From a virus, in the IMG/VR virus record IMGVR_UViG_3300006616_000060, positions 1 to 22,706 of that record: 22,706 nt of DNA; one strand, written 5' to 3'. The notes below the pieces were generated by a model. That model was not told the DNA's origin. It made no database searches and saw only the letters and a program-made list of their open reading frames with translations. This document shows, in pieces, positions 2,704-21,666 of this stretch. Every line of letters begins with the position of its first letter. The stretch's first letter is position 1. The position numbers were made by a program, and so were the translations under genes.

Positions 2704-4242
2704 ATGAGTAGGTCAAAAAGTAGAAAGTTTGCAGACATTCTATCTAACAACATGGGTAACATATTGGCAGATGGTCTAATAGACGCAACTGAGATTACAA
2801 ACTTAGGCACAGCGGCAACTTCGGCAGCTACTGATTTTATGCCAGCATCAATGACTACAGCAACAGACGCAACTGGCTCAGACTTTATACCAGTGTATGA
2901 TGCAGTAAATGGTGTCTGGACAAAGCAGACAATAACTGTAGCGGCACTACAGGGTCAAACTGGAGCTACAGGTGCACAAGGTATCCAAGGTGCTACAGGA
3001 GCCGCTGGAGCTGATGGTGCTACAGGAGCTGATGGTAACGATGGAGCCGATGGTGCTACAGGAGCCACTGGAGCCCAAGGTATCCAAGGTATCCAAGGTG
3101 CAACTGGTGCTACTGGAGCCGCTGGAGCTGATGGTAACGATGGAGCCGATGGTGCTACAGGTCCACAAGGTATCCAAGGTGCTACAGGTCCACAAGGTGC
3201 TGATGGTAACGATGGAGCTACTGGTGCAACTGGTCCACAGGGTGCGACTGGTCCACAGGGTGCGACTGGTCCAGCTGGAGCAGACGGAAACGATGGAGCT
3301 ACAGGACCACAAGGTGCTACAGGAGCTACTGGCCCACAAGGACCTACGGGGAATACTGGTCCTCAAGGTGCTACTGGACCACAAGGTGTGGCAGGTACAA
3401 ATGCCGCTGTTTATAATAATAACACAAGTTCTACAGGTTTCTTTGATTTACCTTCTGGTACGACTTCACAGAGACCCTCTAGTCCTCAAATCGGCTATAT
3501 GAGATTCAACACTACTCTTAACACCGCAGAGGTTTATACAAGTTCTGGATGGTATAGTACAGCCGATTCAGTTCCAATATCTTTTAATGCTAGAATTTTT
3601 ATGGTTGGAGGCGGTGGCGGCGGCACTGGCGGTGTAGCCGCTGTTTATTTTGGCGGTGGTGGCGGAGGTGGATTGGTCACTGAGGTTGCATCACAGGGAA
3701 TGCAAACAAATACAGTTTATACAGTTTCTGTTGGCGCAGGTGGCGCAGGTGGTAATGGTACTACTGGCGGTAACGGTGGAACAAGTAGCCTCACAGGTGT
3801 TGGAGTTAATCTTTCAGCTACAGGTGGCTACGGCGACCCTCATAATTCTAGTCTTGGTGGTGGTAACGCTTCGTATAGTGGCGCAAGTACCACTGGGTCA
3901 TATGCAGGAGGTGTAGGTGCAGGTTCGGCAGGTAACGCATCTACGAACCAAGCTGGACCAGCAACATCTACAAACATTACAGGGTCTACTGTATCAGGAT
4001 ATGGTGGTGGAGGCCACGCTGGTAATGACGGAGGTAATAGAACAGGCACAAGAGCCGCTGGTTTTGGTACAGGTGCAGATGGTGAAGGTTCAGGCGGTCC
4101 ATTTAATGCAGGTTATTCTGGTCGTGTTATTATAAGGTCACCTAGGTCAGTAAAAGTAGCTACAGGTAGTACTACAACCTCTACAGTGGGTTCAGATACA
4201 GTAATAATTTTTAATAGTAGCGGTACTATTGAGTTCAGTTAG
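2704..4242 (+). CDS. Collagen-like tail fibre with glycine-rich tip domain
   Basis: This 512-aa protein has four visible regions. Residues 1-82 form an N-terminal segment ([19 protein letters not shown]) that may attach to the tail. Residues ~83-229 are nearly unbroken Gly-X-Y triplets ([20 protein letters not shown]), a collagen-like trimeric shaft. Residues ~250-290 ([29 protein letters not shown]) match a motif common in tail fibres. Residues ~300-476 are glycine-rich ([30 protein letters not shown]), ending in YSGRVIIR. Glycine-rich tips of this sort are known in phage receptor-binding adhesins, where they form polyglycine-II packing with variable loops. The final residues SGTIEFS close a beta segment. 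Role: host recognition fibre (inference from architecture). Its repeats could recombine with the fibre ending at 438. The start is supported by TAGGAA six bases upstream. Confidence 0.88.
2950..3396 (+). repeat. Collagen-coding repeat tract with exact direct repeats
   Basis: The tract encodes about 49 Gly-X-Y triplets with low codon diversity, so DNA repeats are nearly identical. A 38-bp perfect direct repeat occupies 3025-3062 and 3124-3161 (99 bp apart, exactly 33 codons). An 18-bp unit is perfectly tandem at 3232-3249 and 3250-3267. Both distances are multiples of three, so slippage or recombination would change shaft length in frame. A related, less regular tract lies at about 1-280. Confidence 0.85.
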
Positions 4243-7405: not shown

Positions 7406-7914
7406 AGAGTAACTTTGATAAGTGTCTAGCGATGCTACTTGAACACGAAGGGGGCTATGTAAATGACCCTATGGATAATGGTGGCATGACAAACCTCGGT
7501 GTGACCAAACGTGTCTATGACGACTGGATAGGCCGTGAGTCTACTGAGCAAGAGATGCGTGATCTTACGCCTGATGATGTTGCTCCTATCTACCGCAAGA
7601 ACTACGCCGACCCTATTCGCTTTGATGACCTTCCATCGGGCTTGGATTGGGCGGTTCTGGACTGGTGTGTGAATTCTGGAAAAAGTAGACCATCTAAAGC
7701 AGTACAACGAGCAGTTGGTGCTACTCAAGATGGAGCCATAGGTAATCAGACCCTTGGACTGATAGCTGAGAAAGAACCTAAGTTTATTATAGACTACGTC
7801 TACACAGTCAGACAGGCATTCTATGAGAGCCTAGATGACTACAAGCACTTCGGTAGAGGATGGAGTAGAAGAAACACTGAGACACTTCATCAGGCTATGG
7901 AAATGGCAGGATAA
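7402..7914 (+). CDS. Endolysin, glycoside hydrolase family 108 muramidase
   Basis: This 170-aa enzyme is predicted to cleave the glycan strand of peptidoglycan. The N-terminal GH108 domain shows the family motif LLEHEGGYVNDPMDNGGMT followed by NLGVTK; the Glu of HEGGY (residue 16) is the expected catalytic acid. The C-terminal part (PSKAVQRAVGATQDGAIGNQ) matches the peptidoglycan-binding domain usually paired with GH108. There is no signal peptide, so export must depend on the holin encoded immediately upstream. The length is normal for the family. It is the last gene of the rightward block and is followed by the terminator at 7930-7974. Confidence 0.92.
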   Translation: MKSNFDKCLAMLLEHEGGYVNDPMDNGGMTNLGVTKRVYDDWIGRESTEQEMRDLTPDDVAPIYRKNYADPIRFDDLPSGLDWAVLDWCVNSGKSRPSKAVQRAVGATQDGAIGNQTLGLIAEKEPKFIIDYVYTVRQAFYESLDDYKHFGRGWSRRNTETLHQAMEMAG

Positions 7915-7929
7915 TACATTATAATGACC

Positions 7930-7974
7930 AAAAAACACAGATCGTCCTACATAAGACAGCGATCTGTGTTTTTT
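7930..7974. terminator. Bidirectional intrinsic terminator between convergent gene blocks
   Basis: Perfect 15-bp inverted repeat: AAAAAACACAGATCG (7930-7944) and CGATCTGTGTTTTTT (7960-7974), with a 15-nt loop. Because the arms begin and end in six A/T bases, the hairpin ends in a U-tract on both strands. It follows the endolysin stop by 15 bases on the + strand and lies ~110 bases beyond the last - strand gene, so it can stop both the lysis transcript and the replication transcript. Confidence 0.93.
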
Positions 7975-8020
7975 GTATCATATAGAAACAAATTCTAATA
8001 GGTGAATGTGTCTACGCTAT

Positions 8021-8049
8021 TTGACATGTATACCAGAATAGTGCATATT
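8021..8049 (+). promoter_or_regulatory. Candidate sigma70-type promoter pointing antisense to the replication block
   Basis: TTGACA at 8021-8026 is a perfect -35 box, followed by a 17-bp spacer and CATATT (8044-8049), a 4/6 match to the -10 consensus. A start near 8056 is expected. The promoter points rightwards, into the antisense strand of three small - strand genes, and no + strand gene follows. It is a sequence match only. Confidence 0.35.
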
Positions 8050-8055
8050 ACCTGC

Positions 8056-8069
8056 GTTACTTCGGTAAC
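8056..8069 (+). other. Hairpin with UUCG tetraloop at the expected 5' end of an antisense RNA
   Basis: GTTAC (8056-8060), loop TTCG, GTAAC (8065-8069). The C-UUCG-G arrangement is the exceptionally stable RNA tetraloop when read on the + strand. It lies where transcription from the 8021-8049 promoter candidate would begin. The rest of the 7975-8084 interval shows no gene, tRNA or further structure that I can support. Confidence 0.4.
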
Positions 8070-8084
8070 AACGGAGAGCAGTAG

Positions 8085-8345
8085 CTAGACATCCTTGAGA
8101 TGACTTCCCTGCTCTCCACCCACCTCAGTTATATAAACACCATCATGGGCATCTAAAGAGGCTAATAAGTCCAATAGCTGTTTGTAGTTTATGGCTATTA
8201 GTTGGAACTCTCCTAGTTCATCAGCGAACTGACGTACAAACACTGTGCCGTTGTCTTCTAGGTACATCTCTACATCTTCAAACCTGCCATCCGCATCTAC
8301 TGAAACAACTTTGGTATAGTTTGACTCTATTTCGACTGTGAACAT
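8085..8345 (-). CDS. Small acidic protein of unknown function
   Basis: This 86-aa protein is acidic (VSVDADGRFEDVEMYLEDNG) with alternating hydrophobic residues suggesting a small alpha/beta fold, and has no signal or membrane segment. It is the last gene of the leftward replication block. Its start lies 19 bases inside the end of the zinc-ribbon gene at 8327-8521, so translation may be coupled; a G-rich stretch (GGGG) sits ~13 bases upstream. I do not recognise the family. Position downstream of the RNR gene would place it in nucleotide metabolism or host takeover, by context only. Confidence 0.6.
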   Translation of the reverse strand: MFTVEIESNYTKVVSVDADGRFEDVEMYLEDNGTVFVRQFADELGEFQLIAINYKQLLDLLASLDAHDGVYITEVGGEQGSHLKDV

Positions 8346-8521
8346 GAGAAATACTTATCCCCCTGCTCTATCGGAATTTCTATTGTCATCCTTCGTAAAC
8401 CACACTGAGGGCACTGTCGTTGCCTTCTTTTGGATGGATAGCCATATTTGAAGTGGGGTATTGTTTCAATTACTTTAGTCTTAACCATACACTTTGGACA
8501 ATGCGTTACACTATCTTTCAT
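8327..8521 (-). CDS. 64-aa zinc-ribbon protein resembling the N-terminal domain of NrdR
   Basis: The protein begins MKDSVTHCPKCMVKTKVIET and continues to SKRRQRQCPQCGLRRMTIE. The pattern CPxC, three residues, T-K-V-I-(E/D), then a cluster of Arg, CxxC and xxRxxTxE follows the zinc ribbon of NrdR, the bacterial repressor of ribonucleotide reductase genes (E. coli NrdR, from memory: HCPFC...TKVID...RRRRQCxxCxxRFTTFE). The ATP-cone domain that lets NrdR sense dATP/ATP is absent. The gene lies two genes downstream of a ribonucleotide reductase gene in the same operon. The ATG at 8521 was preferred to an in-frame start at 8620 because the longer form would overlap the upstream gene extensively. 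Alternatives are an Ogr/Delta-like zinc finger (which has CxxC then CxxxxC, so a poorer fit) or a generic zinc ribbon. Confidence 0.7.
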   Translation of the reverse strand: MKDSVTHCPKCMVKTKVIETIPHFKYGYPSKRRQRQCPQCGLRRMTIEIPIEQGDKYFSCSQSK

Positions 8522-8717
8522 CACTGCTCTCTTTCTTTGCCCAAGGTCTCTGGGCGTTTTTTCTACCGCCATTAGAGCCGCTGACCTGACGTGCTCTATG
8601 CCAATCCCAGTTGTCCCCAAATGCGTAACTATTAATTTTAAATGTTTGTCTCATTCTTTTGTTTTCAGCATCTGCCACAGATTTGTGCTGTATCAACAGC
8701 AGTTCTTCTCTGTTCAT
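8511..8717 (-). CDS. Small basic protein of unknown function
   Basis: This 68-aa soluble protein begins MNREELLLIQHKSVADAENK and has a Trp-rich middle (NSYAFGDNWDWHRARQ) and a basic C-terminus (GGRKNAQRPWAKKES). The charge could suit nucleic-acid binding, but no known motif was recognised. The start is well supported by GGAGAGGTGA directly upstream of the ATG. Its stop overlaps the start of the zinc-ribbon gene by 11 bases. It is the first gene after the terminator at 8752-8791, so its expression depends on readthrough or on a promoter in 8718-8799. Confidence 0.6.
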   Translation of the reverse strand: MNREELLLIQHKSVADAENKRMRQTFKINSYAFGDNWDWHRARQVSGSNGGRKNAQRPWAKKESSDER

Positions 8718-8751
8718 TCACCTCTCCAATTTATATTATTTTTAGATGTCA

Positions 8752-8791
8752 AAAGCCCAACTACTAGATAACTTTTTGCTAGTTGGGCTTT
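8752..8791. terminator. Hairpin terminator after the ribonucleotide reductase gene
   Basis: Perfect 12-bp inverted repeat AAAGCCCAACTA (8752-8763) and TAGTTGGGCTTT (8780-8791), 16-nt loop. Read on the - strand it follows the RNR stop by 8 bases and ends in only four U, so it may be leaky. Read on the + strand it ends CTTTCGTTTTC and could stop an antisense transcript. The 10-bp sequence TTTAGATGTC occurs on both sides (8741-8750 and 8799-8808). Confidence 0.8.
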
Positions 8792-8799
8792 CGTTTTCT

Positions 8800-10767
8800 T
8801 TAGATGTCTACAATCTCACAAGTTCCGCCAACACATGCTAAAGTTTGTGAACCTTTAGTTGTGTCCTCAGTCTCATAATCAGACAATCGAGACCAATCAA
8901 TTTTACTAGGCATTGCGAAGAATGCGGCCTCATACTGTTCTTCATTGATGTCCTGATAGGGTGCTTGAGCATACGTGTGATCAAACCTTGGTAAAAAGCT
9001 GACACCAGACATCTCGTCGAAATACTGGTAGACAAACGCACCTACCTCTGCCCATTCGTCATCACCTACTGATACAGTTACTGATGGCTTATGATCTGTG
9101 TAGTGACGCTGGTACGTTAGCCACATCTCCAGCTGTTCTATCGCTGACATATCGTGACGTGTGACTGAGCCTTCTGGTGACTTCATAGGGAAACTGAAGA
9201 CAGTCGTAGTGTTTGGCTTCATGACACAAGGTTCTGATGGTATTCCTTGGTCTGCAAGGAAGTGTGTCAGTGGGTCTTTGTTATCTCCACGGACTGTTCG
9301 GATGTAATAATCAGAGTGTCTCGCATGAATACCAGAACTTGATGATGTCAGCTGTGAGACAGTTCCACTTGGTTTGACCGCAGTAATAGAAGCTGACCTG
9401 TTGATACCAAGTTCATCGGCAAAGTAGTCGTTAGTCTCTCTAGCAACATTACGCCATGTATCTAGCCTATCTTCAAGTCCATCTTCTCTACCATTAGTCA
9501 ATGTGCAGTCCATGATGCCTGTCATTGATACACCTAACAGTGCCTCTTCCTCAGTGTTGGTTGTCCAACAATCACGTAAGTAAGGGAAGTGAGTTAAGGT
9601 CGCTTGGATAGTACCTAAGATAGTCGCAAGTCGTATCTTGTTTGATATGTCAGCTTCAGTATCTGTAGACCTAATGATGGCTTCTGTCAGATTACAGAAT
9701 TGACCACCAGTTCCAACGACACCTCTTGTCTTAGTTTCACCAGTCTCAGGGTCTTCATATTCCTCAAGGCGACTGCCTCGAAGCACGATTTCCGAACATG
9801 GGTTAGTCCCAAATTCCCAGTTGCTGTCTCTATAGCCATCGTATTGGGCTTTAGTTCTAGCCGCCTGTCGATTGAAGATACCACGCTCACCAGAACCAGA
9901 GGCCGCTAATGACGCCCATTCGTTCATGAAGTCTACACCGCTGGGCTTACTTTCGAAAGCCACTGAGTTGTTAGCAAGAGCATGGTGTGGATTGTCGATG
10001 TACCACTCGCCAGACTTAGCTGTACGCATTTCGTCATCCGATAGATCACTTAGGCTGATCATCGCTGAACGTCGCACTCCGCCGACCACCACTATGGAGC
10101 CTATCATGCACATGATGCTGTGGACATCCAAAGGCGACAGCTTACTACCCTGCTTTTTCTTGAAGGTGTCTATTGTATGATCAAACAGTTCAACCAATGG
10201 TTCAGCACCAGATGCCCTACCACCAAATGTTGCTAAACGTGCACCAGCTGGCCTTACATTAGATACATCCCAAGTCGGTATGTTGCCGTGGTTGTATAGC
10301 TCTTCAATGAGTTCTCTATACGCCTTCGCCCAGCCTTCTTTGCTATCTTCTACAACAATCCTGTAATCACCAGCTGTTAGCGTGGGTACGTCTGGTAAGC
10401 TATCTACATACTTCTTTTCGACAGAGAAGCCGACACCAGTGCCACACAGTAGAATAAAGAGAACTTCGTCAAAGCACCTCATGTGATCTATCGGTGTATA
10501 GGAGCAATTATATCCAGCTGTATTGTCTCTCGATAATGCTTTACCAGCTGTCATCAATGACCTCATAGAAGGCATCACTTCTAGGTTTAATATTGCTTGC
10601 TCAATCTCATTGGCAATCTCACGGCTCACACGGGATTTAACCACGTTGTCCATGTAACGCGAGACAGTCTCAGTCCAGCTCTCACGTCTTCCTTCATCTT
10701 CTAGCCATCTGGCATAGCGGCTGGTGTGTATGAAGGCTTGGTAATCTGTAGGCAATAGGTTGTTCAT
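8800..10767 (-). CDS. nrdJ: Adenosylcobalamin-dependent (class II) ribonucleotide reductase
   Basis: This 655-aa enzyme reduces ribonucleotides to deoxyribonucleotides using vitamin B12 coenzyme, feeding phage DNA synthesis. The length and motifs match the monomeric class II type. The finger-loop motif TNPCSEI (residues 321-327) carries the thiyl-radical Cys324 with Asn322 and Glu326. The redox-pair cysteines appear to be Cys88 (GYNCSY) and Cys358 (QFCNL), and the shuttle pair is at the C-terminus, Cys645 and Cys650 (ACVGGTC). The SSGIHARHSDYYIRTVR segment at 478-493 is also typical. All key residues are intact, so the enzyme should be active. Class II RNR genes are known in several marine podovirus groups. 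It overlaps the upstream DUF3310 gene by ATGA and is followed by the terminator at 8752-8791. Dependence on host B12 is implied. Confidence 0.96.
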   Translation of the reverse strand: MNNLLPTDYQAFIHTSRYARWLEDEGRRESWTETVSRYMDNVVKSRVSREIANEIEQAILNLEVMPSMRSLMTAGKALSRDNTAGYNCSYTPIDHMRCFDEVLFILLCGTGVGFSVEKKYVDSLPDVPTLTAGDYRIVVEDSKEGWAKAYRELIEELYNHGNIPTWDVSNVRPAGARLATFGGRASGAEPLVELFDHTIDTFKKKQGSKLSPLDVHSIMCMIGSIVVVGGVRRSAMISLSDLSDDEMRTAKSGEWYIDNPHHALANNSVAFESKPSGVDFMNEWASLAASGSGERGIFNRQAARTKAQYDGYRDSNWEFGTNPCSEIVLRGSRLEEYEDPETGETKTRGVVGTGGQFCNLTEAIIRSTDTEADISNKIRLATILGTIQATLTHFPYLRDCWTTNTEEEALLGVSMTGIMDCTLTNGREDGLEDRLDTWRNVARETNDYFADELGINRSASITAVKPSGTVSQLTSSSSGIHARHSDYYIRTVRGDNKDPLTHFLADQGIPSEPCVMKPNTTTVFSFPMKSPEGSVTRHDMSAIEQLEMWLTYQRHYTDHKPSVTVSVGDDEWAEVGAFVYQYFDEMSGVSFLPRFDHTYAQAPYQDINEEQYEAAFFAMPSKIDWSRLSDYETEDTTKGSQTLACVGGTCEIVDI

Positions 10768-17176: not shown

Positions 17177-19753
17177 TTAACTGAAGCAGAATTGGCTCTC
17201 CCTTATCAGCTGTAGATTAAGGTTACCCATCTGTGGAATTGGGTCTACATTAGCCTTCTCAAAGTCAAACGGATGATCCAGCTGTTGCCTCAGTTCTTCT
17301 TGCCATTTGAGCAACAGGTTTTCAGCTTCATACATCTCGATATGTGCGTCCCTAACTGCAAAGTATAGGTCGTCCACATCTCCTGAGATTGCGAAACTGT
17401 CGTGGATCATAAAGAAGTCTTCGGTTGCCCCAGCGTCAAGCAGTTTGACTATAGTTTTAGCCATTCCAGATGCATCTAAAGAATGTATCAGATTAGCCGC
17501 AACCGAGGCTGTATTCTTTCTCACATCAACCTTACCTGTGTCCATACTCAAAGAAACTTTAGACCTAGTTCTCATGCCCACCGCTGTATCAAACAAGAAT
17601 ATCTTGGTCTCTACTCGGTCTCGCTTCAGATAGTTATGGAAGATCCTAAAACCACTTGGTGAAGTCCAGTTGACCAGCTTGTTTTGCTTGCTGAGAACAT
17701 TGGTGCACGACTGTATCCACTTCATTGCTTCAGCCGCTTTAGGCAAGGTCTCCACAATGCTGTCGTAGCTGTGACCAGCAAGGTATCTAGCCGCAACTTT
17801 TCGCTCTTTGTTCGTCCTAGCAATCGGATGTTTCTCTAGCTCACCATAAGACACAGATCGTTGCAAAGGCTTCATCACGTCTTCCATGTATTGACCAGCC
17901 ATACCAGCGACAACCGATGAATACGGATAGGTCATACATGCCCTCTTCTGATTTCCTCTTGTAATACCGTAGTCTAGCCAGATACGCGCCAGTTCTGCCT
18001 TAGTAATCTCATTCTTACCAAAGGCACTTGGGTCATCTAAATCAACCTCAAGTCTCTGTGTAACTTTGTCAGCTACTGTCTGATAAAGGTCTGCCATTGT
18101 ATCTTGTGGAACTAAGTTTACTAGAGCACCTTCCTCACTACGTGTCAAAAGACTGTAGTGCTGAACGCCACTGTTAGTTCCATCCAGAGAGATAGGAATA
18201 AAACTTACAAAGTCATCACCTTCTATAAGGTAACGTGAGTATTCAAATAGTGCCGCCAACATTTGAAAAGGCTTGTCGGCAGTCTTCCATAGACCCATCT
18301 CTGACTTGTAGTCTTCAGCCATGTCTAGCAACCAACCTTCGTTATGGTCAAACCAAGCAATACGATCTTCCAATGGTGCTTTGTCAATCTTTTCAAACCC
18401 ACCACAATTCGCAATATGTATCTTTAGCCACTCTATGTTCTGACCATCAAACAGGCGTCCTCTTTGAAACTGGAAGAGTGACTTAATATGGTCGTCCCTA
18501 TGGTAGTTGAATGAAGGAACCATATTGAAGCGGCCTCTAAAATCACATGCCCAAGGGATCGTGAAGTAATCATGGATTGCCAGCTCTCTAGCAATCTGCA
18601 AATCTTGCTTCATGACAGCTTCAGCACCTTTAACCCTGCGATCAGTATTTCGCCATTCTCGCTGGTCTTCTTTGATTGCTTTCTTTAGCTCCTGATCCAT
18701 TGTCATGTGATCAGCTGGTAGCCTTGGGAATTCTGGTGTATCTCGCTTTGGAAACTTACCGAATGACTGGCGTGTCTCCCAGCACCACTCTACAACTTCC
18801 AACATCTCCTCGTTGATACAAAGCCTCGTTTCTTGGAGTGCATTGAGTGCTCTAAAGTGCTCTGGAATTTCACCCTTAAAGCTGTGCTCTATGGCCTCAA
18901 TCTGCTTCGCTGAAGCCCCTCGAACCAGCTTCACGCACTCTGCTAATCTCCAGTCCTTATAAGCCCCTGTATGGAAGCCTATCCACGGGTTCGGTGTGTC
19001 CATAGGAATGGGCTTTAGGAGTGGCTGTGACCATTGTAGGTACTCTTTGCTATTCTCAATTTCGCGCTGGGCTTCCTGAGTAAAAGACAAACGAGTGATG
19101 CTGTTTTTTGGCGTGGTGTACTGAGTGTCTTTTTGGAAAACATTACAATACTGAAAGATTGCTGAGATGACTGGTGCTGAGTTTGCTGTGCGTCTTTTCT
19201 TGTGCATCTTTCTGTCAGCTTTAGTTTCAGAGATACCGAAGTATACAGATTTGGTGCCATTCTTAGTCGCTATGTTCCTGAGTGCTTTCAGTCTTACATG
19301 TGCTGACGTGTGTGTTTTAGAGACCATATCGACAATACGTTTATTGTTTTTATTTTGCTCTTCGTCTTCGCTGTGAAGTAACTCAAGTGCTAGACACTCA
19401 CGATCAATCAGGCTTCCTATTTCCTGAGTGACTGCATTCATTGTCGTGTCTTTTAGGACTGCATTGTAACAAGTCTGCAAACCGATTAAGGCCAGCTGTC
19501 TTGGGTCTAGGTGCATAAGGTCATTTAGCCACGTCGGGCGGCGTCCTTTGCCTCTTCTAGCTTCCTCAATATCTTTTGTAAGTCCTTCGGCAACCTTATC
19601 TAAAACTTTCTTTAGCTGGTTGTACTCTGGTGCTTGCTCTGTGACGTTATCTGCCTGTTTATACCTGTCTTCCCACTTAGTTCTGCCATCTTGCTTCATG
19701 GTCTCAATGTAAGCCTCTGCGATGGGGTTGGCCTGTGTGCTGTTGTCGCTCAT
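17177..19753 (-). CDS. Single-subunit DNA-dependent RNA polymerase (T7 gp1-like)
   Basis: This 858-aa protein (T7: 883) transcribes phage genes from phage-specific promoters. Key motifs, numbered from the chosen start: DFRGR at about 404; PISLDGTNSGVQH with catalytic Asp524; RGNQKRACMTYPYSS with Lys603 and Tyr611 (T7 Lys631, Tyr639); ANLIHSLDASGM; and MIHDSFAI with catalytic Asp785 (T7 Asp812). The C-terminus ends FCFS, equivalent to the FAFA foot of T7 polymerase, so the protein is complete. The ATG at 19753 was preferred to a GTG at 19810 because GGGGGGAG lies about eight bases upstream and a 44-codon ORF ends there by ATGA. It follows the integrase gene, an order known from P-SSP7-type marine phages. 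Confidence 0.97.
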   Translation of the reverse strand: MSDNSTQANPIAEAYIETMKQDGRTKWEDRYKQADNVTEQAPEYNQLKKVLDKVAEGLTKDIEEARRGKGRRPTWLNDLMHLDPRQLALIGLQTCYNAVLKDTTMNAVTQEIGSLIDRECLALELLHSEDEEQNKNNKRIVDMVSKTHTSAHVRLKALRNIATKNGTKSVYFGISETKADRKMHKKRRTANSAPVISAIFQYCNVFQKDTQYTTPKNSITRLSFTQEAQREIENSKEYLQWSQPLLKPIPMDTPNPWIGFHTGAYKDWRLAECVKLVRGASAKQIEAIEHSFKGEIPEHFRALNALQETRLCINEEMLEVVEWCWETRQSFGKFPKRDTPEFPRLPADHMTMDQELKKAIKEDQREWRNTDRRVKGAEAVMKQDLQIARELAIHDYFTIPWACDFRGRFNMVPSFNYHRDDHIKSLFQFQRGRLFDGQNIEWLKIHIANCGGFEKIDKAPLEDRIAWFDHNEGWLLDMAEDYKSEMGLWKTADKPFQMLAALFEYSRYLIEGDDFVSFIPISLDGTNSGVQHYSLLTRSEEGALVNLVPQDTMADLYQTVADKVTQRLEVDLDDPSAFGKNEITKAELARIWLDYGITRGNQKRACMTYPYSSVVAGMAGQYMEDVMKPLQRSVSYGELEKHPIARTNKERKVAARYLAGHSYDSIVETLPKAAEAMKWIQSCTNVLSKQNKLVNWTSPSGFRIFHNYLKRDRVETKIFLFDTAVGMRTRSKVSLSMDTGKVDVRKNTASVAANLIHSLDASGMAKTIVKLLDAGATEDFFMIHDSFAISGDVDDLYFAVRDAHIEMYEAENLLLKWQEELRQQLDHPFDFEKANVDPIPQMGNLNLQLIRESQFCFS

Positions 19754-19884
19754 GTTTTGGCTCCCCCCTCTTTGTTGTGTGAAGTTGGTGGTGCGGTCTC
19801 TGGGTTGCACCAGCTAGACAGTGGATGTCCAAAAAAACCTTGTTGACAGTTATTTATTTTCACTTTCGTCGTGCTCTTATACAT
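19750..19884 (-). CDS. Possible 44-aa ORF coupled to the RNA polymerase start
   Basis: An ORF of 44 codons (MYKSTTKVKINNCQQGFFGH...) starts at an ATG with AAGGGAAG five bases upstream, 16 bases after the integrase stop, and ends in an ATGA overlap with the RNA polymerase start. The last codons contain the polymerase Shine-Dalgarno. This layout suggests translational coupling. The peptide itself is not recognised; it may be a leader rather than a functional protein. A small hairpin (TGGTGC 19789-19794, GCACCA 19807-19812) lies inside it. Confidence 0.45.
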   Translation of the reverse strand: MYKSTTKVKINNCQQGFFGHPLSSWCNPETAPPTSHNKEGGAKT

Positions 19885-19900
19885 TATTACTTCCCTTTTC

Positions 19901-20800
19901 TCATATTTCCATTCCAAACAGGTCACACTGCTTGTCTTGTGGTTCTGCAATAGTTTTGCTTTGCTCTTTCTTCCCTCTCATTAAGTCAGCCATAGACCTC
20001 AAGGTCTCTGGTGCTGTCTTTATATACTTTCGGGTCGTGTTTAGGTCTCGGTGTCCTAAAAACTTTCCGATGATGTCTGTGTTATAAGCCCCACTGTTAG
20101 CCAGCGTGGTTGCACAGGTATGTCTTGTTGTATGAAACGTATATCTCTTGTCTGAGTTTAAGATTGCTCGTCTCATGTGCTTCCACCCCCGATAGAACAA
20201 TTTACTATTCCAGTTCTTAGAGACATCAGTTCCTAGTTTCCTGATAGCTCTTAGGGCTTCGTCATTGACTGGCACTGTGCGGCTGTCTCCGTTTTTAGTG
20301 TCAGCTAAGTAAACTGAGTAACCACCAGTTGCATCAATAACTAATGTGCTTTCGTTTATGCTTCTGATCTCCCCTATTCGCATCCCAGTGTGAATGCCAA
20401 TGATCAAGTAAAACTCTAAGTCTCTGAAGTCAGCACTATTACGAAAGTAGGACGACATTAAGTCTATCTGAGACTTTGTAAAGTATAAAGGCCGCTTGTT
20501 TCCTTTGACCTTACGATACTTAAACTTGGGTACATGGCTAATGTGCTCCTCACAAACGGCATGAGAGAACACTTTAACTATCATAGCACCATAGTGATTT
20601 ATGGTATTATTAGACAGCCCCTGCTCCGCAAGACTATCAAAGAACCTATGAATATGGCTCGGCTTAAAGTCGCCGATACCCCTTGTCTCATGATCAGAGA
20701 AAGAGGCAAATCGCTCGGCTTTGGTGATGCTTCGGGCTCGGTGTGCTTCACCATCCCAAATTAGCTTTGCATCCATATGGACTAGCTCAAGAAATGTCAT
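19901..20800 (-). CDS. int: Tyrosine recombinase / phage integrase
   Basis: This 299-aa site-specific recombinase is predicted to integrate and excise the phage at an attachment site. The N-terminal ~100 residues form the core-binding domain. The catalytic set is complete (numbered from the ATG at 20800): Arg141 (HTGMRIGEI), Lys169 (TKNGD), His223 and Arg226 (FHTTRHT), His250 (FLGHRD) and nucleophile Tyr259 (TRKYIKT). The ATG was chosen over an upstream GTG (20824) because GGAAGG lies seven bases before it. It overlaps the preceding gene by 14 bases. Integrases just upstream of the RNA polymerase are known in marine T7-like phages (P-SSP7, pelagiphages). No attP core could be recognised nearby, and no repressor is visible in the window. 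Confidence 0.95.
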   Translation of the reverse strand: MTFLELVHMDAKLIWDGEAHRARSITKAERFASFSDHETRGIGDFKPSHIHRFFDSLAEQGLSNNTINHYGAMIVKVFSHAVCEEHISHVPKFKYRKVKGNKRPLYFTKSQIDLMSSYFRNSADFRDLEFYLIIGIHTGMRIGEIRSINESTLVIDATGGYSVYLADTKNGDSRTVPVNDEALRAIRKLGTDVSKNWNSKLFYRGWKHMRRAILNSDKRYTFHTTRHTCATTLANSGAYNTDIIGKFLGHRDLNTTRKYIKTAPETLRSMADLMRGKKEQSKTIAEPQDKQCDLFGMEI

Positions 20801-21008
20801 TTGCTTTCCTTCCGTAATGCTCACGAACTGCCATCTCTATTGCTCCAGCTTTGGCTTGCTCCAGTTCCTGTGGTGTTAATTTGTTAGCCATTGCTTGCGC
20901 TAGGCCAGCCGCAGCTGAACTTTTTTTCGCAGTGCTTGCTGTAAGGCTTCTAAACAAAGCCACTTGCAAGGCTTCAACTGCTGTTTCTGCTGTGTAATCA
21001 ATAATCAT
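20787..21008 (-). CDS. Small Ala-rich helical protein of unknown function
   Basis: This 73-aa protein is predicted to be entirely helical and Ala-rich (VEALQVALFRSLTASTAKKS, AAGLAQAMANKLTPQELEQA), ending in a basic segment (VREHYGRKAND). It has no signal or clear membrane segment. A strong Shine-Dalgarno AGGAGG lies nine bases before the ATG. It overlaps the gene upstream (11 bases) and the integrase downstream (14 bases), so all three are probably co-translated. Being coupled to int it could be an accessory such as a directionality factor, but nothing in the sequence shows that. Confidence 0.65.
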   Translation of the reverse strand: MIIDYTAETAVEALQVALFRSLTASTAKKSSAAAGLAQAMANKLTPQELEQAKAGAIEMAVREHYGRKANDIS

Positions 21009-21171: not shown

Positions 21172-21666
21172 TTAGCTCCCTAAAAATACTACTAATATTT
21201 GCTCACCTTGGCATTCGTTGCACTCATCTAGATCAATGCTTTCAATGAAGGTGTGCCACTTTCCACGCTGGTTAAGAAATTGCGCTGTAGCTTCTTTCAC
21301 ATCTTCCATGTGAACTTTGCCGTTGATTACGCGAATGACATCTTTAAACCACATGTCACATTTATCAGGCGAAAAACAGACGCTGTATTTTCCGTTAGGT
21401 ATCTTTGCGATGCCATCAACTGAACCATCTGCTTTATTCTGTGGTATGAAGTCGCCCCAGTCTTCGCTATTCTCGCTCTCAGTCCATTCACCTATTGCCC
21501 AGCTTATGTCGTCTGGAGTGTAGCCCTTTTCCTCGTCCCAGAGGCGTCGCTCGTCTTGCTTCTCTGTCCACTCTCCAAAGCAAGGCTCACACCATTGCTC
21601 GCCCTGCGTTACTGTTGCTCCGCAATCGGTACAAATTGATGATCTATTTTCTACTACTGTATTCAT
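21172..21666 (-). CDS. Zinc-ribbon-containing early protein of unknown function
   Basis: This 164-aa protein has an N-terminal zinc ribbon, Cys12-x2-Cys15 (CTDCG) and Cys26-x2-Cys29 (CEPCF). The following region is Trp- and acid-rich (WTEKQDERRLWDEEKGYTPD, IGEWTESENSEDWGDF), then comes a beta-rich part, and a third CxxC (CNEC) lies near the C-terminus (residues ~153-156). The acidic nature and early position would suit a protein-binding host-takeover factor, but I recognise no family. The leader AGAAGGAACAAAAGA before the ATG is nearly identical to that of two other early genes (22478 and 22249). A large RNA hairpin (21694-21747) lies just upstream. Confidence 0.65.
   Translation of the reverse strand: MNTVVENRSSICTDCGATVTQGEQWCEPCFGEWTEKQDERRLWDEEKGYTPDDISWAIGEWTESENSEDWGDFIPQNKADGSVDGIAKIPNGKYSVCFSPDKCDMWFKDVIRVINGKVHMEDVKEATAQFLNQRGKWHTFIESIDLDECNECQGEQILVVFLGS

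Follow-up and report, generated by a model that had tools for sequence, protein, structure and literature searches.

A stand-alone NrdR-type zinc ribbon with altered specificity residues in a marine phage: a candidate DNA-binding regulator

A 64-aa protein encoded by a marine phage is, as judged from profile matches and a predicted fold, the zinc-ribbon half of an NrdR-like regulator, and it is tentatively put forward here as a candidate for a small, nucleotide-blind phage regulator that binds DNA with a changed specificity; interference with the NrdR of the host is ranked second. Half-NrdR proteins are present in many phages, in most of which no ribonucleotide reductase (RNR) gene was found. 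The sequence adds a further member to a known, uncharacterised kind, one in which the specificity residues have changed in an informative way; the protein is real and probably an ordinary small phage regulator. The gene lies in a stretch of viral DNA of 22,706 nucleotides (IMG/VR record IMGVR_UViG_3300006616_000060), which in its full length is referred to below as the window.

The ribbon gene

The gene occupies positions 8327..8521 on the minus strand, stop codon included, and is translated into the 64-residue product MKDSVTHCPKCMVKTKVIETIPHFKYGYPSKRRQRQCPQCGLRRMTIEIPIEQGDKYFSCSQSK; it is described as an NrdR-type zinc-ribbon gene from a PF22811 match, a PDB profile match, its pN/pS ratio and an AlphaFold2 (AF2) model. 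A scan of IMG/VR yielded 28 viral-contig relatives with the same 64-residue frame, at 88-97% identity and with the same ATG and stop, and all 28 keep the start, length and position of the gene. In L020-L028 the frame on the 5' side of this ATG is either closed or without conservation, which places the start at position 8521. The 22 distinct DNA versions of the gene encode 12 proteins, with a pS of 0.39 and a pN of 0.037, and from the ratio of 0.096 it follows that the ORF is a protein-coding gene under purifying selection. A chance or wrong-frame ORF is ruled out by this ratio and by the conservation in relatives, and the ribbon ORF is a genuine gene. In one relative (L005, positions 7813-9781) the RNR and other long genes are split into several frames, as a result of sequencing error or decay, and the ribbon gene is intact.

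Family assignment and fold

Among Pfam families, PF22811 (Zn_ribbon_NrdR) fits the window protein best (E=4.5e-5), with a score of 23.7 bits that falls just under the curated cut-off of 27.2 bits. Scores above the cut-off were obtained for the homologues in L026 (29.8 bits) and in phage CRP-901 (34.5 bits), and the family was matched by 18 of the 18 aligned members, with a best E of 3.1e-9. When the PDB was searched with the family profile, NrdR of E. coli and S. coelicolor ranked first (2e-5 to 2e-3). The AF2 model of the window protein, which is of moderate confidence (mean pLDDT 77.9, pTM 0.53), consists of a three-stranded ribbon and a C-terminal helix. With this model, NrdR chains took ranks 1-5 in Foldseek, with no E below 0.001, and NrdR took ranks 1-4 in VIA-align, over 44-45 residues at 34-41% identity and with Z of 4.3-4.8, values that are low, as expected for a 45-residue ribbon, and only slightly above those of unrelated ribbons. 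Sequence and predicted fold concur that the window protein is an NrdR-type zinc ribbon. The zinc-ribbon pattern that the first-pass annotation had read in the product is borne out by the Pfam, PDB profile, Foldseek and VIA-align results, and its statement that the nucleotide-sensing ATP cone is absent agrees both with the length of 64 aa and with the match to full-length NrdR (TIGR00244), which is confined to positions 2-42 of 147 and reaches 18.1 bits against a cut-off of 124.65.

Residues compared with NrdR

The first zinc knuckle, HCPKC (residues 7-11; 8489..8503, minus strand), was located from the translation and contains C8 and C11, both invariant in 18 sequences. The basic stretch and second zinc knuckle, KRRQRQCPQCG (residues 31-41; 8399..8431, minus strand), match the RRRR and second CxxC of NrdR. 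Across the alignment of 18 sequences the zinc cysteines, R33, R35, R43, T46 and E48 are invariant, and in alignment to E. coli NrdR only one of the four arginines is missing from the window protein (RRQR), which has kept the zinc cysteines and the later arginine. The specificity residues D15-S16-R17 of NrdR are replaced in the alignment by ETI (residues 19-21; 8459..8467, minus strand). In the window clade, 28 of the 29 sequences carry E in the position of D15 and I in that of R17, the sole sequence with D and R (DTR) being that of a close relative, L026. At the RRRR position the clade has RRQR, RRAR or RRHR, so that the lost arginine varies freely (Q, A, H), and the CRP-901 clade retains DSR and KRRR.

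The functions of these residues have been established for S. coelicolor NrdR, in which contacts with the DNA backbone are made by arginines 12, 26-29 and 37, base recognition being the task of D15 and R17; mutation D15A relaxes specificity and R17A abolishes box and DNA binding (PMC9110341). The NrdR tetramer is formed by pairwise zinc-ribbon contacts, and a mutant without the ribbon only dimerises (PMC9110341). The smallest NrdR unit has been described as a dimer via the zinc ribbons, and a single NrdR box is bound poorly, high affinity requiring two boxes bound by the tetramer (PMC12051234).

In the reading tentatively preferred here, phages would have kept the zinc-ribbon half of an NrdR-like regulator as a free-standing DNA-binding protein. 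It may pair through its ribbon, as NrdR does, and the arginines it has kept, those of RR-x-R and one that follows the last cysteine, would grip the DNA backbone; because both specificity residues are changed in the window clade, its target site would differ from the NrdR box. Such a protein could regulate phage or host promoters without sensing dATP or ATP. The retained backbone arginines speak for DNA binding at another site and are the reason for putting a re-specified DNA-binding regulator first. The lack of an excess of NrdR-box-like sites in the window and the occurrence of ribbons irrespective of RNR, both described below, are in keeping with it. Against it, the AF2 model is of moderate quality (pTM 0.53) with structural scores as low as for any 45-residue ribbon, and L026, with its DTR, shows that not every member of the clade shares the specificity change. 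Moreover, none of the binding tested survived the R17A mutation of S. coelicolor NrdR, which means that the phage protein could have lost DNA binding altogether, and the scan for NrdR boxes described below rested on an approximate consensus.

Gene neighbourhood

The ribbon gene is on the same strand as a class II (B12-dependent) RNR gene and is the next gene but one to it. The RNR (655 aa; 8800..10767, minus strand) matches phrog_367 (E=4e-170) and TIGR02505 RTPR (E=8e-82, under the cut-off of that model), and is 65% identical to the RNR of phage CRP-235. On its upstream side the ribbon gene is overlapped over 11 nt by the gene for a 68-aa basic protein (8511..8717, minus strand) and on its downstream side over 19 nt by that for an 86-aa protein (8085..8345, minus strand), neither of any known family and each syntenic in 28 of 28 relatives. 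In each of these genomes the genes follow one another as RNR - 68 aa - ribbon - 86 aa, and the ribbon gene with its two overlapping small neighbours sits at the end of the replication block, which is ended by a bidirectional terminator-like hairpin with 16-bp perfect arms (7929..7975) between converging gene blocks.

The RNR is separated from the three-gene cluster by a terminator-like hairpin (8752..8791, minus strand) with 12-bp perfect arms AAAGCCCAACTA, a 16-nt loop and a minimum free energy of -21.6 kcal/mol (z -5.7). A hairpin is present at this junction in 8 of the 28 relatives (L001, L002, L004, L018, L020, L021, L027 and L028) and missing in the rest, and three states of the junction between the RNR and 68-aa genes can be distinguished: a 22-nt gap (14 of 28), the hairpin (the window and 8 relatives) and an additional ORF of some 110 codons (7 relatives, of which one has the hairpin as well). 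This extra ORF (NFLYGFAISLHLGLDGSYNELHPHIRL...) lies downstream of the RNR in L015 (5404-5769), L016, L020 and L022-L025. Both stem and loop of the hairpin are conserved, and its presence or absence among close relatives concerns exactly one junction; the element resembles a terminator or attenuator cassette that a genome may have or lack. The proposal that the ribbon gene is co-transcribed with the RNR is favoured by the common strand, the position next but one and the 22-nt gap in half of the relatives (14 of 28), in many of which co-transcription is likely; in the window it is uncertain, and may be attenuated, because this clade-optional hairpin intervenes.

Elsewhere in the window, an integrase gene (19901-20824) adjoins that of a diverged T7-type RNA polymerase (17177-19810; at most 30% identity to named phages), an arrangement which suggests a temperate autographivirus-like phage. 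No lysogen was found in one scan of genome contigs with the primase-helicase, and no cellular or prophage homologues of the ribbon were found in a genome-contig scan with the family profile. Collagen-like G-X-Y repeats occur in two tail-region ORFs (1-303 and 2959-3386), a second protein, whose N-terminal region has CxxC pairs (CTDCGATVTQGEQWCEPC), is encoded at 21172-21666, and no convincing repeat was seen as a phage promoter motif.

Occurrence of the ribbon with and without RNR

All 28 close relatives carry the ribbon beside a class II RNR, but as they belong to one syntenic phage lineage this constant adjacency counts as a single event. The nearest relatives outside the window clade are homologues in roseophages CRP-901 and CRP-902 (35-40% identical), and profile searches of these two complete genomes found no RNR subunit, neither a large one of class I, II or III nor a small one. 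No RNR large-subunit match was found in eight metagenomic contigs of the CRP-901 group, most of which are fragments. Seventeen further phage records contain more diverged NrdR-like ribbons that are stand-alone or nearly so (RcZahn, ctuI7215, S-CRES2, ctLwi270, Montmirail, ct7L0027, EBPR siphovirus 2, six viral contigs, YPHTV-1, MedDCM-OCT-S31-C1, S-SRP02 and DSL-LC05); in this convenience sample, which is not a survey and includes viral contigs of uncertain completeness, an RNR is present in S-CRES2 only and none was found in the other 16. Many full-length NrdR matches in the phage collection were excluded, as they look like bacterial or prophage-flank sequence. No ribbon of the window family was found in the 18 kb around the RNR of the RNR-bearing roseophages CRP-235, CRP-5 and ICBM2. 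The RcZahn copy of the ribbon follows a ThyX gene; a scan with RcZahn gp96 gave one doubtful locus only (L070), a double zinc ribbon that was not counted as NrdR-like. Stand-alone ribbons occur in phages irrespective of RNR, and the functional tie to RNR that had been read from the operon is not upheld at the level of the family, given CRP-901, CRP-902 and the 16 of 17 distant records in which no RNR was found; homologues mainly in phages with no RNR gene are the pattern that the first-pass annotation had itself named as refuting its proposal.

Alternative roles

The role ranked second, possible but unlikely, is one in which the phage ribbon pairs with the ribbon of the host NrdR, breaks the tetramer, derepresses host nrd genes and raises the dNTP supply. 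Mixed pairing would be possible because NrdR tetramers form via zinc-ribbon pairs, as is evident from the ribbonless mutant that only dimerises (PMC9110341) and the ribbon dimer as minimal unit (PMC12051234). The phage protein is just the ribbon domain, and the window clade has lost the box-specificity residues and kept the fold, as a poisoning partner could. Phages that lack an RNR would profit from this role as well, and the relatives in such phages and the RcZahn copy beside ThyX fit a need for host dNTPs; in work on an alphaproteobacterium, nrdR was deleted in order to increase RNR expression (PMC12186491). However, the window phage brings its own RNR, and the CRP-901 clade keeps DSR, so that DNA binding would be expected there too. 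That the phage ribbon acts as a nucleotide-blind, dominant-negative anti-repressor of host NrdR and so frees the dNTP synthesis of the host during infection, in which case stand-alone phage ribbons would represent a general strategy against NrdR, is considered unlikely on the present analysis.

A structural or other zinc-ribbon role outside transcription control, for example in a replication or nuclease complex, appears improbable. The position of the gene at the end of the replication block is in keeping with it, zinc ribbons are common generic folds and the VIA-align rows directly beneath NrdR include RNA polymerase ribbons, but the specific best match is NrdR and not one of these other ribbons. 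Quite improbable, too, is an activator of the Ogr/Delta type, a zinc finger that would recruit host RNA polymerase to phage promoters: RcZahn gp96 is annotated as Ogr/Delta-like and 10 of the 18 family members match PF04606 weakly (best 1.3e-3), but in that scan the best E for NrdR is some six orders of magnitude lower (3.1e-9), PF04606 is not among the 25 Pfam matches listed for the window protein, and the window phage has its own T7-type RNA polymerase. The profile and fold comparison suggested at first pass has NrdR as the best match and Ogr/Delta as far weaker.

Occupation of the NrdR boxes of nrd promoters, whether those of the host or of the phage, by a protein that senses no nucleotides, on sequence grounds the less likely of the two ideas originally advanced, is very improbable in spite of the homology to the box-binding domain and the DSR and KRRR of the CRP-901 clade, because D15 and R17 have given way to E and I in the window clade (28 of 29 sequences) and R17A abolishes box binding by S. 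coelicolor NrdR (PMC9110341), and given also the need for two tetramer-bound boxes (PMC12051234) and a scan of the window that, with an approximate 16-bp consensus, found no excess of sites (28, 2 and 0 at at least 11, 12 and 13 of 16 positions, against 28.9, 5 and 0.8 in shuffles).

Comparison with known systems

Phage proteins of 51-81 aa named NrdR or NrdR-like N-terminal domain are already present in UniProt/BFVD and GenBank, for example in YPHTV-1 (UUG68580.1, 51 aa), MedDCM-OCT-S31-C1 (BAQ94383.1, 61 aa) and BFVD (A0A6J5KN77, 76 aa), and, contrary to what had been supposed, the kind is not new. In a fold search of BFVD the matches were weak on the whole (best E 9.9e-3), and several NrdR-like phage proteins were among them. 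In the literature searched, no functional description of phage NrdR-type ribbons was found, only annotation lines; a longer phage 'NrdR' appears only in a table of a cyanophage paper (PMC8790148). If the free ribbons do target host NrdR, phages would hold a direct handle on the dNTP supply of the host; if not, the ribbons form a small regulator family with diverged specificity residues that is directly testable via existing NrdR structures.

The named phage proteins resemble the window protein in being stand-alone NrdR-type ribbons of similar length from tailed phages, but belong to different lineages, and no RNR was found in YPHTV-1 or S31-C1. In CRP-901 (L029:7983-8180) and CRP-902 (L030:7983-8180) the ribbon gene has no annotation and falls between gp02 and gp03. 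This ORF and its metagenomic relatives (L029, L030 and L032-L058) align with the window protein over nearly the whole length and resemble it in length and in the C-terminal stretch; in contrast to the window clade, they keep DSR and KRRR and belong to a different phage type and gene neighbourhood, with complete genomes that lack RNR. The Ogr/Delta zinc fingers (PF04606), too, are small transcription factors of phages that bind zinc and belong, broadly, to this type of ribbon, although their profile matches the window family much more weakly. With the N-terminal ribbon of NrdR itself (PF22811; E. coli 9gex/9fvr, S. coelicolor 7p37), the window protein shares the two CxxC knuckles, the basic RR-x-R before the third cysteine and the arginine and then T-x-E after the fourth, whereas it has no ATP cone, its loop between the specificity residues and the arginines is two residues longer, and in its clade D15 has become E, R17 has become I and one of the four arginines is Q, A or H.
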